NCBI GenBank assembly: GCA_003554665.1
Contig: PWGY01000003.1
Span: forward strand, 1 to 9,924
Origin: Bacteroidales bacterium
GTDB taxonomy: Bacteria; Bacteroidota; Bacteroidia; Bacteroidales; UBA7960
Length of the DNA: 9,924 nt
Direction of reading: 5' to 3'
A model generated the notes under the pieces. That model was not told the DNA's origin. It ran no database searches and saw only the letters and a program-made list of their open reading frames with translations. The position numbers were made by a program, and so were the translations under genes. Of the stretch, positions 1,016 through 9,924 are shown in pieces. Every line of letters starts with the position of its first letter. The first letter of the stretch is position 1.

Positions 1016-2062
1016 TTATGGATTATAAATCAGGTGCAGGCTTTCCGTGGCAACTGGAATATAAGAAACGGTTCGTGATGGAGTGATCTCCGGTGCACGG
1101 ATGCCCTTGCCAAAAAACTGCTTTCCGGTAAAGACCCTGGCTTCGTCCCATTGTCCCTCATCAATAAAGGTTTGCAGTAACTGACGGCCGCCTTCCACCA
1201 GCAGGGACTGGATCCCCTTGTGATAAAGGAAATTCATGACCTGACCGGTAAGCTTTTCCAAAAAATTGATTTTGACATACTGTAAATTACCTTCCCGCTC
1301 TTCTTTTACTTCATTAAAAATGACGGTGGGTTGACTTTGATCCATCAGGTGCAGTGTATGGGGTAACTTCAGGGATCTGTCTGTGACCAGACGAAGGGGA
1401 GAGGGGCCGTGCCAGTCACGCACATTCAGCATGGGATCATCTTTCAATGCTGTTTGTGTGCCGACCATAATGGAGCCTTCTTCGGTGCGCCATTTGTGAA
1501 CCAGCATACGAAGCTTCTCACTGGTAATCCAGGTTGGACGGTTTACAGAACCCGGGGTTCTTTCCGTATCGATGTACCCATCTGCCGTTTCTGCCCATTT
1601 CAGAATCACATAAGGCCGTTTTTTTTCGTAGAAGGTGAAAAACCGTTTGTTGAGGATCCTGCAGTTGTCTTTCAGCACCCCCACTTTGACATCGCATCCG
1701 TTACTGCGCAGCCTGGCAATTCCTTTACCGGCCACTTCATCAAAAGGGTCGGTCGTTCCGATCACCACCTGTGGGATGCCGGATTGCAGAATCAGGTCGG
1801 TACAGGGGGGGGTTTTACCATGATGACAGCATGGTTCAAGATTGACATACAAGGTGGAATTTTTCAGCAGTTCTTTGTTTTTGACCGATGCAATGGCCCG
1901 GACCTCGGCATGATGGTCGCCATGCCTGTGATGATACCCTTCACCGATGATCCGGTTTTTGTTAACAATGACTGATCCCACCAGGGGGTTGGGCGCTGTT
2001 TTCCCAAGACCGGTCCTTGCCAGCTCTATGCATCGCTGCATATATATTGAATCATATTCCAT
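1016..2062 (-). CDS. ribD: Bifunctional riboflavin biosynthesis deaminase/reductase RibD
   Basis: RibD catalyses two consecutive steps of riboflavin synthesis in the cytoplasm: deamination of the diaminopyrimidine product of GTP cyclohydrolase II, then NADPH-dependent reduction of the ribosyl side chain. The N-terminal cytidine-deaminase-like domain (about 1-145) shows APNPLVGSVIV, the zinc/catalytic HAE (His51, Glu53) and EPCCHHGKTPPC with zinc ligands Cys78 and Cys87. The reductase domain (about 150-348) shows LKWAETADGYI, GTQTALKDDPMLNVR and VEGGRQL. I start it at the ATG at 2062 (348 residues). The longer frame begins with TTG at 2089 and adds nine residues not expected before the family's usual N-terminus. 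The gene follows the SpoIIE-type phosphatase by 49 bases, on the same strand. Its product feeds FMN synthesis, which HydB needs, although the adjacency could be incidental. Confidence 0.95.
   Translation of the reverse strand: MEYDSIYMQRCIELARTGLGKTAPNPLVGSVIVNKNRIIGEGYHHRHGDHHAEVRAIASVKNKELLKNSTLYVNLEPCCHHGKTPPCTDLILQSGIPQVVIGTTDPFDEVAGKGIARLRSNGCDVKVGVLKDNCRILNKRFFTFYEKKRPYVILKWAETADGYIDTERTPGSVNRPTWITSEKLRMLVHKWRTEEGSIMVGTQTALKDDPMLNVRDWHGPSPLRLVTDRSLKLPHTLHLMDQSQPTVIFNEVKEEREGNLQYVKINFLEKLTGQVMNFLYHKGIQSLLVEGGRQLLQTFIDEGQWDEARVFTGKQFFGKGIRAPEITPSRTVSYIPVATESLHLIYNP
1805..1812. repeat. Eight-base G/C homopolymer inside ribD
   Basis: A run of eight G on the + strand (eight C in the coding sense) encodes part of Thr84-Pro85-Pro86 in the zinc motif of RibD. 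It is a possible slippage site. The reading frame is intact here. Confidence 0.6.
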
Positions 2063-2086
2063 AGCCGGGAAAGCTTCGTTGTAAAG

Positions 2087-2094
2087 CAAAGATA
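2087..2094 (-). promoter_or_regulatory. Candidate internal promoter -7 box for ribD-yigZ
   Basis: Read leftward this is TATCTTTG, a full match to the Bacteroidota -7 consensus TAnnTTTG and the same octamer as the candidate box upstream of hydC. The -33 region is poor: CTG at 2115-2113, 18 bases away, instead of TTTG. Transcription would begin near 2082, about 20 bases before the ribD ATG. It could let ribD-yigZ be expressed independently of the hydrogenase-associated genes. Confidence 0.33.
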
Positions 2095-5681: not shown

Positions 5682-6155
5682 ATGGAAGAAGACCTGGGGC
5701 ATTTTTTTGAACAGTTTCCAAACAAAAAACGGGAAGATCTCATCCCCCTTTTACAGGCCATTCAGGATGAGGAGGGATATCTTTCCGAAAAGATTATTTC
5801 CGCAGTAGGTCGCTACCTTGATATCAGTACCAACAAGATTTACGGGGTAGCCACTTTTTATGACAACTTTCGTTTCACCCCGGCCGGCAGGTATCATTTT
5901 CGTGTTTGTCACGGTTCTGCCTGCCATGTGGCAGGTACCGGCATGCTGATCAGGGAGCTGGAAAAGCAGTTGAAGGTGAAAGACGGAGAAACCGACAAGG
6001 AAGGCTTATTCAGTCTGGAACTTGTCAGCTGTATCGGAGCCTGCGGGCTGGCCCCTGTGATCGAAGTCAATGATCAATACTATACCAATGTGACCCTGGA
6101 TTCTCTGAAAGTGCTCATTGAATCGTTCAGGGAAAAAGAAAATTCCGCCATATGA
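5682..6155 (+). CDS. hydC: Hydrogenase subunit HydC, NuoE-like [2Fe-2S] protein
   Basis: This 157-residue protein is the normal size for HydC/NuoE. An N-terminal helical part (about 1-65, including the family-typical IYGVATFYDNF at 53-63) precedes a thioredoxin-like fold. Its [2Fe-2S] ligands are Cys76 and Cys81 (CHGSAC) and Cys117 and Cys121 (CIGAC), followed by GLAPVIEV. In trimeric HydABC enzymes HydC packs on HydB and carries an electron-transfer cluster next to the flavin site. It is the first rightward gene, and its stop overlaps the hydB start as ATGA, which implies translational coupling. No Shine-Dalgarno sequence precedes the ATG. The HydC call over NuoE rests on the adjacent hydB and hydA. 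Confidence 0.93.
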   Translation: MEEDLGHFFEQFPNKKREDLIPLLQAIQDEEGYLSEKIISAVGRYLDISTNKIYGVATFYDNFRFTPAGRYHFRVCHGSACHVAGTGMLIRELEKQLKVKDGETDKEGLFSLELVSCIGACGLAPVIEVNDQYYTNVTLDSLKVLIESFREKENSAI

Positions 6156-8101
6156 CCTGGAGTAACCTGAATGATACACGTGATTTTCTAATCAGCAAGG
6201 TTTTATTGAACCCTGACAGAGATGCAGACACTGAGCTGAAAAAGCCTTTGTCTTATATTGCCGGGGAGCGGATCGAGAAGACGTTGATTTATGTGGGGAT
6301 GGCCACATGCGGCCGTATTGCCGGTGCCGAAAAGACCTACCAGAGTATCCGGACATATCTTGCAGAGCATGACATTGATGCAGAACTGATCGAAGGGGGG
6401 TGCATGGGGCTTTGCCAGGCAGAACCTGTGGTGGATATTCAGGTGCCGGGTAAAACCCGGTTGTCTTTTGCTTCAGTTACAGAAGACAAAGTGCAGCTTT
6501 TACTTGATGATGTACTGAACCATACCCTTCCGGACCTGCCTCTTACCGGTCAGTATAAAAGCCCGATACTACGGGAATGGGAGCAGGTGCCGTATATGGA
6601 AGAGCATCCCTTTTTTGCCGGACAACAAAAACTTCTCACTTCAAATTGTGGCAGGATCGACCCCGTTTCCGTGTCCGCCTATATTGCCAGGGGCGGTTAT
6701 GCGGCATTTGCCGACTGCATTTCCCGGTTCACCCCTTTACATGTCTGTGAGAAGATCGAAGCCAGCGGACTGACAGGAAGGGGAGGAGGAGCCTTCTCAA
6801 CCGGCAGAAAATGGCTGGCTGCATCCCGGGCCACCAGTGACCAGAAATATTTTGTCTGCAATGCGGTGGAGAGTGATCCGGGCAGTTACATGAACAGGGC
6901 CATTATCGAAAGCAATCCGCACAGACTCATTGAAGCCGCCCTTATTGGTGCTTATGCCACCGGTGCCAATAAAGCATACATTTTTGTGCGCAAGGAATCT
7001 GTCCTGGCCGGGGAGCGTCTTGAAAAAGCTTTGGAGGAAGCCCGCTCGTTTGGCCTGACAGGTCATGACATACTCGGCTCAGGTGTAAATATCGATATTG
7101 TATTGAAAAGGGGAGCAAGGGCCTTTATCTGTGGTGAGGAAACCGCTCTGAATAAAAGTCTGGAGGGGAAAAGGGCCATTCCAGCTTTCAAGCCCCCATA
7201 CCCGCCTGAGCGTGGATTATGGAATAAACCCACTGTGGTCAACAATGTGGAGACCTTATTTAATATTCCGCTGATCATTCAGCATGGACCTGAATGGTTT
7301 CGCAAAACCGGATCCGAAAGCAGTAAAGGTACCAAGGTTTTCACCCTCTCAGGCAAGATTAATCGCTATGGAACTGTTGAAGTTCCCATGGGAACCACTT
7401 TTGATGATATTGTGCACAAAATTGGGGGCGGGGTAAAAAATGAAAAAGCATTTAAAGGGATTGTACTGGGGATTAACAGCGGCAGCTTCATTACCAGTGA
7501 CAACCTTGATACCAGGGTTGATTATGAAGATCTGAACCGTATCGGGGGCGTATTGGGCAGTGGGGCCTGTGTTGTTCTTGATGAAACCGTTTGCATGGTT
7601 GATCTGGCCAAGTTCTTTACCGCCTTTTTTAAAAAGGAGAGCTGTGGGCAGTGTATTCCCTGCAGAGAGGGAACCGCAAGAATGCTGGAAGTGATGGAAA
7701 ATGCGACAAGTCGTCCTTCAGAAAACAACTCTTTTCAAACGCTTGAACGTTTCAAGGGAGTGATGCAACTCAAGGGCCTTGCGGCCGTGATCAAAGATAC
7801 CTCTCTTTGTTCTCTGGGAAAATCTTCGCCCAATGCCGTGCTGAATACCCTGAAATTTTTCAGGGATGAATTTGAAGCGCATATTTTTGAGCGGAAATGC
7901 CATGCAAGTGTTTGTACGGATCTGCAGTTTTATTATATCGACGTGGATGCCTGTACCGGTTGTACGGCTTGCTTCAAGAAATGCCCGATGGATGCCATAA
8001 TTGGGTCTCCAAGGTATCCGCATTTCATTGTGCAGGAAAAATGTATTGCCTGCGGCACCTGTTACGACGTTTGCAAATTCAATGCAGTCGTTATTAAATA
8101 A
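6152..8101 (+). CDS. hydB: Hydrogenase subunit HydB, NuoF-like flavoprotein, divergent
   Basis: This 649-residue flavin subunit should bind FMN and NAD(H) or NADP(H) and exchange electrons with HydA. Residues 45-110 are a thioredoxin-like domain with only three visible cluster cysteines (Cys53, 84, 88). The NuoF core (about 170-490) has GRGGGAFSTGRKW (209-221), CNAVESDPGSYMNR (236-249), ICGEETALNKSLEGKR (326-341) and VVNNVET (362-368). The [4Fe-4S] site is CGQCIPC plus Cys553 (ligands 498, 501, 504, 553). Cys583 and Cys588 match the CPAxxC element typical of HydB. A two-cluster ferredoxin ends the protein (Cys601, 604, 607, 611 and 631, 634, 637, 641), which separates HydB from respiratory NuoF. 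Off-consensus points include Val239 where NuoF/HydB usually have Asp, Ser216 for Pro, and GINSGS (440-445) for GGPSGG. Whether these alter cofactor preference is unknown. Confidence 0.93.
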   Translation: MTWSNLNDTRDFLISKVLLNPDRDADTELKKPLSYIAGERIEKTLIYVGMATCGRIAGAEKTYQSIRTYLAEHDIDAELIEGGCMGLCQAEPVVDIQVPGKTRLSFASVTEDKVQLLLDDVLNHTLPDLPLTGQYKSPILREWEQVPYMEEHPFFAGQQKLLTSNCGRIDPVSVSAYIARGGYAAFADCISRFTPLHVCEKIEASGLTGRGGGAFSTGRKWLAASRATSDQKYFVCNAVESDPGSYMNRAIIESNPHRLIEAALIGAYATGANKAYIFVRKESVLAGERLEKALEEARSFGLTGHDILGSGVNIDIVLKRGARAFICGEETALNKSLEGKRAIPAFKPPYPPERGLWNKPTVVNNVETLFNIPLIIQHGPEWFRKTGSESSKGTKVFTLSGKINRYGTVEVPMGTTFDDIVHKIGGGVKNEKAFKGIVLGINSGSFITSDNLDTRVDYEDLNRIGGVLGSGACVVLDETVCMVDLAKFFTAFFKKESCGQCIPCREGTARMLEVMENATSRPSENNSFQTLERFKGVMQLKGLAAVIKDTSLCSLGKSSPNAVLNTLKFFRDEFEAHIFERKCHASVCTDLQFYYIDVDACTGCTACFKKCPMDAIIGSPRYPHFIVQEKCIACGTCYDVCKFNAVVIK

Positions 8102-8117
8102 TGTCAGCAATCATTTT

Positions 8118-9845
8118 ATGGATTATCAGATAGAAGTCAATAGAAACCAGATAGATGTCAGGGAAGGAGAAAGCCTGCTGACTGCACTGACCAGGAACGG
8201 AATCAAAGTGCCCACACTTTGTCATATGAACCGTTTTTCACCCACGGGAGCCTGTCGCTTGTGTGTTGTTGAGGTGGAAGGCCGGAAAGATCTGGTAACC
8301 TCCTGTTCTTCCCAGGTGGAAAAAGGGATGAAAGTCAGTACCAATTCACAACGGGTGCTTCGTGCAAGAAAATCCCTTGTGGAACTATTGCTTTCCAACC
8401 ATCCGGATGATTGCCTGTACTGTGTTCGCAACGGACATTGTGAATTACAGTCGCTGGCAGAGGAAATGAACATCAAGGAAAGAAAATATTACGGAGAAAA
8501 AAATACCCTTTATCCGGACTACTCAAGTCCGAGTGTGGCACGCGATCCTGCCAAATGTGTTTTGTGCAGCCGTTGCGTGAGGATGTGCGAAGAAGTTCAG
8601 GTGGTGACCGCCCTTGATTTTATCTCCCGCGGCAATCAGACCACTGTGAACAGTGCATTCAATAAGGGGCTGAATGTTTCTACCTGTATTCATTGCGGTC
8701 AGTGCATCCAGGTTTGTCCAACGGCTGCACTGATCGATATATCCCACATTGAAAAAGTGCAAACTGCCCTTGGCAACAAGGATAAAATGGTGGTGTTTCA
8801 TCTCAGTCCATCAGTCGGTGCTTCCGTAGCTGCGGAACTGAAAATGAAATCGCGCCACCTTGTCATGCAACGAATTACCTATGCGTTGAAACGATGCGGA
8901 GCTTCCAGGATATTCAATCTGGGGTTCGCCAGTGATGTCAATATTCTGGAGGAAGCCAATATCTTGAAAGACAGACTCGAAAATGAAGGGAGCGCCGTTC
9001 CCCTGATATCTTCCTGTTGTCCGGCATGGGTGCGTTATGCGGAGGATCATCACCCGGAAATTCTCGATCAGTTATCTCCGGTGAAATCTCCCCAGCAGAT
9101 CATGGGAACCATGGCAAAGATTTTCTGTGCTGAAAAGCATGAACTGGACAGGGAAAACATTTTCAGTGTATCGGTGACACCTTGCGCAGGAAACAAATAT
9201 GAATCATCCAGGGAGGAAAATACCCATAAGGGTGTTTCGGAAATTGATGCAGTACTGACAGTCCGCGAACTGTTTCAGCTGTTACGCAGTTTTGGCCTGG
9301 ATCTTGCACAAATGAATGAGGATGATCTGGACGAACCTTATAACGAAGCTTCAGCTGTTGCCTGGAAACACGGGTATTCCGGAGGAAAAGCAGAAGCAGT
9401 TGCAGAGCAGCTTTTTTACCTGATGAGCAATGGCAAGAAGGAAAAATTCAAATTCAATCCGCCCAAAAATATGACGGGCAGACGTGAAACGAAACTGAAC
9501 ATCGGCGGTAAGCAACTGGGTTTCGCCTGGGTGAGCAGCATCTCGGAAGCAGAACATTATTTGCAGCATTTGAAGCAGGAGGGCAGGGATGATATTCACT
9601 ATCTGGAGGTGATGGCCTGCCTTGACGGATGTGTTGGTGGAGGAGGACAGCCGGTCAGCCGGGGTTTTGAAATGTCCAGATCCAGAAAAAAAATATGCCT
9701 TGAAATGGAAAAGTTGTCGGAGACAAAGTATGCCAGGGATAACTCCGGGGCCAATGCTTTGTTTAAAGAAGGGAGACTGGAGCCGGGCAATGAATTGGCG
9801 GAAGCCTGGCTTAAACCTGTCTTTACCGACAGATCGTCTGATTGA
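8118..9845 (+). CDS. hydA: [FeFe]-hydrogenase catalytic subunit HydA with unusual L2 motif
   Basis: This is the H-cluster subunit, which interconverts H2 with protons and electrons. I choose the ATG at 8118 (575 residues, 16 bases after hydB). The open frame runs back to an ATG at 8001, but those 39 residues lie within the hydB coding region and match no family N-terminus. Domains: plant-type [2Fe-2S] (Cys35, 46, 49, 63), His-Cys [4Fe-4S] (His95, Cys99, 102, 108), two [4Fe-4S] sites (Cys147, 150, 153, 157 and 190, 193, 196, 200), then the H-domain. L1 is SSCCPAW (298-304) and L3 is EVMACLDGCVGGGGQP (497-512), both functional-looking. L2 reads TPCAGNKYE (354-362) where MPCxxKxxE is expected, so the Met and the Lys that contact the H-cluster are Thr354 and Asn359. 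All four cluster cysteines (301, 356, 501, 505) remain. It lacks the C-terminal extra domain of Thermotoga HydA. Confidence 0.92.
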   Translation: MDYQIEVNRNQIDVREGESLLTALTRNGIKVPTLCHMNRFSPTGACRLCVVEVEGRKDLVTSCSSQVEKGMKVSTNSQRVLRARKSLVELLLSNHPDDCLYCVRNGHCELQSLAEEMNIKERKYYGEKNTLYPDYSSPSVARDPAKCVLCSRCVRMCEEVQVVTALDFISRGNQTTVNSAFNKGLNVSTCIHCGQCIQVCPTAALIDISHIEKVQTALGNKDKMVVFHLSPSVGASVAAELKMKSRHLVMQRITYALKRCGASRIFNLGFASDVNILEEANILKDRLENEGSAVPLISSCCPAWVRYAEDHHPEILDQLSPVKSPQQIMGTMAKIFCAEKHELDRENIFSVSVTPCAGNKYESSREENTHKGVSEIDAVLTVRELFQLLRSFGLDLAQMNEDDLDEPYNEASAVAWKHGYSGGKAEAVAEQLFYLMSNGKKEKFKFNPPKNMTGRRETKLNIGGKQLGFAWVSSISEAEHYLQHLKQEGRDDIHYLEVMACLDGCVGGGGQPVSRGFEMSRSRKKICLEMEKLSETKYARDNSGANALFKEGRLEPGNELAEAWLKPVFTDRSSD

Positions 9846-9864: not shown

Positions 9865-9924
9865 ATGCCTGAAAAAGAACCATCAAATATTATATATACG
9901 GTCAAGGATCGTTGCAGGGTATGC
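9865..9924 (+). CDS. Start of a further iron-sulfur protein gene (partial, 20 codons)
   Basis: Only the N-terminus MPEKEPSNIIYTVKDRCRVC is present before the right edge. The segment YTVKDRCRVC resembles the beginning of a CxxCxxCxxxC ferredoxin motif in large ferredoxin/hydrogenase-like regulatory proteins, where DRCRVC is normally followed by YTCVRECP-like residues. If so, this would be a second hydrogenase-like or ferredoxin-type sensor at the end of the hydCBA operon. The gene begins 20 bases after the hydA stop with no terminator between, so it is probably cotranscribed. The family idea rests on about ten residues and pattern memory. Confidence 0.5.
   Translation, partial: MPEKEPSNIIYTVKDRCRVC

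Follow-up and report, generated by a model that had tools for sequence, protein, structure and literature searches.

Sequence comparisons suggest a rewired HydABC-type [FeFe]-hydrogenase, perhaps part of a sensing system, in Bacteroidota

The window analysed here, a 9,924-nt stretch of a Bacteroidales genome (contig PWGY01000003.1), encodes a divergent HydA whose L2 motif, TPCAGNKYE, lacks the Met and Lys conserved around the H-cluster of [FeFe]-hydrogenases. The question raised by this locus is whether the change reflects altered tuning of the enzyme or a different job, the options put forward by an earlier note on the same DNA. That reading is a sensible one, but its focus on L2 is too narrow: the substitutions are real, whereas the stronger signals are a broken proton wire, the changes A230S and V423K, and a co-occurring signalling module. 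The evidence set out below suggests a hydrogenase that was rewired, and is perhaps part of a sensing system, rather than one that simply decayed. Positions compared between proteins follow CpI of Clostridium pasteurianum, and the features of the window are collected in Table 1.

The codons at 9177-9203 (aca cct tgc gca gga aac aaa tat gaa) encode T354, P, C356, A, G, N359, K360, Y and E362. In an ungapped alignment with CpI, K358 is matched by Asn and M353 by Thr, as the earlier note had claimed, and the DNA and its translation agree with it that the cubane-linking Cys356 and Glu362 are retained. The proviso that Lys360 might occupy the K358 place finds no support: since the stretch from L1 to L2 aligns without gaps to the CpI chains of the PDB, N359 takes the place of K358 and K360 falls on residue 359. 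A Lys at the 360 place is common anyway, being present in 121/121 proteins of the window's clade, X (the window and the best 120 of 6448 matches), in 90/90 I-type and 30/30 Ala230 proteins of a second search (best 120 of 8000), and in 28 of 29 clade X loci, with Arg in L028. A sequencing error is unlikely, because a relative of 95% identity (P0002, locus L001) has the identical motif, with Asn and Thr, and the next relatives (P0003, 87%; P0004, 85%) also have Asn, but with Met instead of Thr. No characterised homologue with the window's residues was found among the PDB matches or in the openly licensed literature searched.

Substitution of the L2 Lys reportedly impairs characterised enzymes, and we take Lys237 of DdHydAB to be the equivalent of CpI K358. 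QM/MM calculations place Lys237 in a salt bridge with a terminal cyanide (PMC13321311). M353 varies naturally, with Thr in CpII and Gly in CpIII (PMC5506873, PMC10055695).

Beyond L2, and missed by the earlier note, the pocket of the window HydA carries A230S, F417H and V423K, and E282 is lost. Among the proton-wire residues C299, E279, S319, E282 and R286, only E282 is replaced, by Ile. Since in CpI V423 lines the [2Fe] cavity and F417 contacts the cluster (PMC5954619), Lys424 is well placed to matter. The further claims that L1, L3 and the accessory-cluster ligands are intact, and that the gene is not decayed, both stand: the reading frame is open, and the cluster cysteines are present in the window HydA and kept in 30/30 clade X rows, including the four H-cluster cysteines C301, C356, C501 and C505 (L1, L2, L3). 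Altogether, 20 of the 23 cysteine positions of the window are Cys in all 30 rows, and the other three (260, 337 and 527) are absent from canonical enzymes. The protein misses both curated NCBIfam group A models, with 347 bits against TIGR02512 (406 needed) and 565 against NF040763 (765 needed). The small-subunit domain PF02256 was not reported for the window HydA (P0001) at E-values up to 10, and none of four scanned clade X proteins reaches its cut-off (P0007, 13.9 of 24 bits); the I-type protein P0122 is also short of it (21.5 bits), and precomputed annotation gives the domain to the clade X proteins P0050 and P0088. An AF2 model of HydA (19 sequences, mean pLDDT 70.1) is good in the H-domain and poor in the Fe-S domain.

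Table 1. Features of the 9,924-nt window (X counts: the window and the best 120 of 6448 matches)
Feature	Position	Strand	Basis
SpoIIE-type protein phosphatase, 394 aa	2112..3296	-	Profile, Pfam, BLAST
Sensor-type [FeFe]-hydrogenase homologue, 617 aa	3320..5173	-	L2 (4592-4618) carries Ala where CpI has K358; L3 (4262-4291) is without its first Cys
Stand-alone NuoE-like [2Fe-2S] protein, 87 aa	5189..5452	-	
hydC, NuoE-like [2Fe-2S] subunit, four Cys kept	5682..6155	+	
hydB, NuoF-like flavin subunit, 649 aa	6152..8101	+	
Rewritten HydB flavin/NADH loop FVCNAVESDPGSYMNR (canonical CNADEGDPGAFMDR)	6851..6898	+	Loop comparison
hydA, divergent group A-like HydA, 575 aa	8118..9845	+	Pfam Fe_hyd_lg_C and Fe-S domains; NCBIfam TIGR02512
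Ser230 (CpI A230)	8805..8807	+	S in 119/121 X proteins; 80-locus count
Glu279 (inner residue of the proton wire; present in the window, lost from sister group I)	8952..8954	+	Alignment
Ile282 (CpI E282, proton-wire entrance, lost)	8961..8963	+	Aligns with the altered residue of the E282A chain 6gm1
Cys300-Cys301 (CpI C299 relay, C300 cubane ligand), kept	9015..9020	+	Alignment
L2 motif TPCAGNKYE (T354 = CpI M353, N359 = K358)	9177..9203	+	DNA, translation, CpI alignment
His418 (CpI F417, touching the [2Fe] cluster in CpI)	9369..9371	+	Alignment; PMC5954619
Lys424, new Lys (CpI V423, lining the [2Fe] cavity)	9387..9389	+	Alignment; PMC5954619
L3 Cys501 to Cys505 (CpI C499, C503), kept	9618..9632	+	Alignment
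Start of downstream sensor, cut by window end	9865..9924	+	L003 counterpart: Fer4, Fe_hyd_lg_C, FeS, HisKA, HATPase_c

Clade X was taken as 121 proteins, the window HydA and the best 120 of 6448 matches, at 53% identity or more. Among them, position 358 is Lys in 76, Asn in 42, Glu in two and Ser in one, so that K358 alone does not define this enzyme, and position 353 is Met in 95, Thr in 13, Leu in six, Val in four, Ser in two and Ile in one. Position 230 is Ser in 119 (Asn and Ala once each), position 423 is Lys in all 121 (Val in 59/59 canonical locus rows), and F417 is always replaced. E282 is lost in 116 and both glutamates are kept in five, position 279 being Glu in 118 and Asp in three. 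C299 is Cys in 113, Asp in seven and Asn in one, M497 is kept in 116, and the two are kept jointly in 113. By these counts the L2 changes are the smaller part of a clade-wide rewiring and not the oddity of a single gene. Five of the proteins with Asp at C299 (P0074, P0080, P0081, P0086 and P0088) also replace M497 (Ala in three, Glu in two), a paired change that sits near the amine bridge of the cluster.

A sister group, I, was taken from a second search, whose best 120 of 8000 matches comprise 90 proteins without Ala230 (I-type) and 30 with it; the 121 X and the 90 I proteins are grouped by their rank in similarity and by residue 230, rather than by a place on a tree for each. Among the 90 I-type proteins, E279 is lost in 87 (Gln in 72) and E282 kept in all, K358 is lost in ten (Asn in seven, Met, Ala and Arg once each), V423 is never Lys, and position 299 is Cys in 73, Asp in nine, Ser and Asn in three each, and Tyr and Phe once each. 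The 30 Ala230 proteins have K358 throughout and both glutamates in all but one, and the canonical locus rows, chosen by Ala230, show E279, E282, K358, M353, F417 and V423 in 59/59. Thus one wire is cut at two sites, at E282 in X (116/121; best 120 of 6448 with the window) and at E279 in I (87/90; best 120 of 8000). In CpI, H2 evolution falls below 1% with E279A or E279Q and C299A or C299S and to 8.2% with E282Q, and stays at 30-90% with E282A, E282D, C299D and R286A, Asp being a tolerated substitute at C299 (PMC6226526).

A careful tree of 53 rows unites the 30 module-type rows, named for the signalling module described below, in a single clade (support 99/97); support is 100/100 for X and 96/92 for I, and K358 changes at least four times on this tree. 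Given the single origin of that clade, we rejected the idea that the module and the broken wire arose together in many independent events. Groups were set by residue 230 (X and I being told apart by locus number) in the comparisons of canonical rows, cysteines, divergence, HydB loop, group I, tree and sensors, which therefore do not test residue 230 itself; the count of module against broken wire over 80 loci and its cross-count are independent of that residue. On the side of the canonical enzymes, 13 of 35 same-operon HydA proteins have Ser (TSCSPGW) instead of Cys at the place of CpI C300, which we take to be a cubane ligand, as has A. woodii HydA1 in the PDB.

Could the substitutions be the drift of a redundant paralogue under relaxed selection? 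The H-domain has diverged strongly in X, the ratio of mean pairwise difference between H-domain and Fe-S domain being 2.07, against 1.44 in I, 1.01 in canonical same-operon and 0.73 in other canonical proteins, and many different residues occur at 282 and 358. Drift is nonetheless highly improbable in view of the open frame of the window, cluster cysteines kept in every one of the 30 clade X rows, new residues that are nearly fixed (Lys424 in 121/121 and Ser230 in 119/121 of the window and the best 120 of 6448 matches) and an operon order conserved across loci.

An alkaline habitat was considered and rejected as the cause. The closest named loci are the Bacteroidales MAGs CSSed10_126 (L001) and T1Sed10_123 (L002), and CSSed10 and T1Sed denote soda-lake sediment datasets from the Kulunda Steppe (PMC6146748). 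Soda-lake labels are carried by 23/29 X loci and by 0/16 I loci, though I breaks the same wire, and 21 canonical HydA rows (L085-L097, L101-L108) from 13/16 X genomes, not all of them from soda lakes, keep E279, E282, R286 and MPCxAKK.

An ordinary working bifurcating hydrogenase with altered bias is possible, if on the doubtful side: protons would take another exit, and Ser230 and Thr353 would tune the enzyme towards H2 uptake, as proposed for CpII. CpII shares Ser at A230 and Thr at M353 with the window HydA, has a proposed role in recapturing reducing equivalents (PMC5506873) and is an active enzyme whose bias is strongly altered (PMC10055695); for TamHydS, an enzyme of group D in which most of the wire residues are missing, a different pathway has been proposed (PMC11803613). 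The joint retention of C299 and M497 in 113/121 X proteins (the window and the best 120 of 6448) also suits a working enzyme. However, the pocket triad at A230, I268 and M353 is Ser, Thr, Thr in CpII (PMC5506873) and Ser, Leu, Thr in the window, Thr353 is found in only 13/121 X proteins of the same set, and the HydB flavin loop is changed as well. Unlike CpII, the window HydA is encoded with HydB and HydC and lacks E282. In group I, moreover, the Gln found at E279 in 72/90 proteins (best 120 of 8000) is a replacement that leaves less than 1% activity in CpI (PMC6226526).

The HydB change concerns a loop that presumably binds FMN and NADH, as in complex I, and that reads CNADEGDPGAFMDR in canonical proteins and CNAVESDPGSYMNR in the window (NADEGDPG to NAVESDPG). 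EGD is found in 32/32 canonical HydB rows, and ESD in 30/30 X and 15/15 I rows and in 0/32 canonical rows; the Asp preceding this tripeptide is replaced in X by Val (29 rows) or Phe (one row, NAFESDPG). Cysteines are largely maintained in both partner subunits: of the 24 cysteine positions in the window HydB, 22 are shared with canonical enzymes and hold Cys in 29/30 or 30/30 X rows, and the four of HydC are kept in 26/26. C189 and C473 of the window HydB are Cys in 0/32 canonical rows, and one column that is Cys in 32/32 canonical rows is Phe in the window. In group I, N-terminal HydB cysteines are missing in up to 9/15 rows.

The genes around hydABC are arranged in a recurrent way. Where X loci have room, one strand carries yigZ, ribD, spoIIE, the 617-aa sensor and the small NuoE-like gene, and the other strand hydC, hydB, hydA, a kinase-linked sensor, a receiver, a receiver-kinase, Rex and hydG; I loci are similar in order, but ribD and yigZ are not nearby. 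We searched 80 loci for the module (spoIIE, sensor and NuoE-like gene) by BLAST with the window's own proteins. Among loci with at least 6.5 kb upstream of hydA (53/80), it is present in 27/27 with a broken wire and in 0/26 with an intact one; the 27 loci with less upstream sequence comprise 17 with a broken wire (six with part of the module, 11 with none) and ten with an intact wire (none). Over all 80 loci, Ala230 is absent from 44/44 broken-wire rows and present in 35/36 intact-wire rows; L020 keeps both glutamates and is counted as intact, yet it has Ser230 and falls in clade X, and its upstream part is too short to show the module. Because the tree gives one origin, the tie between module and broken wire is an association rather than proof. 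In L071, which has an intact wire, weak matches to SpoIIE (26%) and the sensor (28%) lie at 17514-20407 (plus strand), about 6-7 kb downstream of hydA on the other side, and possibly belong to an unrelated phosphatase-linked sensor. Two flavin-synthesis genes, ribD (1016-2089, minus strand) in the window and an FAD synthetase gene at L003:15967-16890, flank the flavoenzyme operon.

The two sensors differ in their motifs. The minus-strand sensor has lost the L2 Lys of the 358 place in 30/30 rows (19 X, 11 I), with a Lys one residue on in all of them, and the first L3 Cys in 19/19 X and 0/11 I rows; the kinase-linked sensor of the plus strand keeps the L2 Lys in 71/71 rows. Since a histidine-kinase sensor adjoins intact-wire HydABC too, sensor neighbours alone do not make HydABC regulatory.

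An H-domain without the [2Fe] part, with Lys424 filling the empty cavity and HydA acting as no more than an Fe-S conduit in a redox device that does not depend on H2, strikes us as unlikely. It would explain why V423, which lines the cavity in CpI (PMC5954619), has become Lys and F417 is replaced in 121/121 X proteins (the window and the best 120 of 6448), why the module's minus-strand sensor has dispensed with its first L3 Cys in all 19 X rows, and why 8/90 I-type proteins (best 120 of 8000) have neither Cys nor Asp at C299; the four cubane cysteines are expected to be kept either way. C299, though, is not a cubane ligand, yet it is Cys or Asp in 120/121 X proteins, and M497 is kept in 116/121 (same set, best 120 of 6448). 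In addition, hydG remains near hydA in X, on the same contig and 4-7 kb away in 13/16 X genomes. Among loci with at least 8 kb downstream, hydG is near hydA in 17/18 X, 4/14 I and 20/26 intact-wire cases, the last of which means that a nearby hydG is not special to the module. In profile searches HydG is over the cut-off in 25/30 genomes, and within the 16 X genomes HydE, HydF and a canonical HydA are so in 13 each. Two X genomes (G006 and G016) have HydE, HydF and HydG over the cut-off and no canonical HydA over it, which counts only slightly against a conduit, since genome completeness is not stated and the kinase-linked sensor may also need maturation. In three others (G001, G002 and G004, two of them the nearest to the window) HydG is present and HydE and HydF are below the cut-off; these genomes may be incomplete.

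Among known systems, bifurcating HydABC (Bfu) of group A3, with solved structures from T. kivui (HydA1, 8a6t), A. woodii (7q4v) and T. maritima (7p5h), is close to the window HydA, which shares with it the subunits, the order hydC-hydB-hydA, the HydA Fe-S cysteines and the fold; the window HydA differs in the L2 Lys and Met, E282, A230, F417, V423 and the HydB NADEGDPG loop, and in falling below the NCBIfam group A cut-offs. The BfuABC of Hydrogenedentota, with an adjacent group C3 T gene, resembles the window in having a group C homologue with PAS or kinase beside HydABC, but its motif P2 is given as MPCxAKK, unlike the L2 of the window; motif differences between sub-types are reported, and the part of that paper available makes no mention of proton-wire loss (PMC11406978). 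Like the "phosphatase-linked" group C3 of HydDB, the minus-strand homologue adjoins a SpoIIE phosphatase gene, and, judged by this neighbour and the HydDB table (PMC5037454), it may belong to group C3, from which it differs in that the Lys of L2 and the first Cys of L3 are missing. TmHydS and TamHydS, which are sensory HydS enzymes (PMC10055695, PMC11803613), likewise depart from the CpI wire and M353, with F417 replaced in TmHydS. In contrast to them, C299 and M497 are kept in the window HydA, and Pfam scans found no PAS, kinase or similar signalling domain fused to its H-domain; the fused kinase sits in the neighbour. A description of clade X was not found in the openly licensed literature, and with most subscription papers outside that scope its novelty is unproven.

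The reading we favour, at about even chances, is an assembled but retuned HydABC of low turnover, probably with a regulatory function. Ordinary fast catalysis and drift are both argued against by the cut wire, the changed flavin loop and the nearly fixed new residues, and an assembled H-cluster in X is argued for by the kept cysteines, Cys or Asp at C299 in 120/121 proteins (the window and the best 120 of 6448) and a nearby hydG. For group I, "assembled and wired" is the weaker statement because of the C299 losses, the missing N-terminal HydB cysteines and the presence of hydG near only 4/14 loci. The module-type HydABC of Bacteroidota would thus be a trimer resembling bifurcating hydrogenases that retains the HydA Fe-S chain and most likely an H-cluster, with an active site no longer tuned to fast H2 turnover. 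The H-cluster would still receive electrons from NAD(H)/ferredoxin, and proton entry, because the E279-S319-E282 wire is cut, would be slow or re-routed, although the loss of E282 alone need not cripple the X enzymes, since E282A keeps about half of the activity in CpI (PMC6226526). The redox or H2 state of HydABC may be read jointly with the hydrogenase-like sensors nearby, of which one adjoins the SpoIIE gene and another is fused to a histidine kinase, and bulk H2 flux would be carried by the canonical HydA paralogues.

The L2 change would be one late part of this retuning. It is possible, from the residue pattern, that a Lys moved from 358 to 423. The strict form of this idea, that Lys358 is lost only together with Lys423, held in a smaller sample, in which 59 canonical and 16 I rows all had Lys358; it was rejected when 10/90 I-type proteins (best 120 of 8000) were found to have lost Lys358, none of them with Lys423, and the proposed move is weakened by the same losses. 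We put forward only tentatively, and hold to be rather doubtful, the wider proposal that a whole bifurcating HydABC was converted in Bacteroidota to a signalling complex, in which the HydA Fe-S wiring would be kept, both catalytic ends (the H-cluster pocket and proton wire of HydA and the flavin loop of HydB) rewritten, and the NAD(H)/ferredoxin/H2 poise reported to phosphatase-linked and kinase-linked sensors; in clade X the distal-cyanide anchor may have moved from the L2 Lys358 to the new Lys423.

These naturally occurring enzymes have the accepted proton wire interrupted, at E282 or at E279, with the cluster ligands still in place, and the residue changes are tied to one gene module. They make it possible to test what H2 chemistry needs at the least, and what Lys358 does, in proteins shaped by evolution instead of by mutagenesis. 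If a regulatory HydABC is real, it would add a new level to the control of H2 and redox state in anaerobic Bacteroidota.
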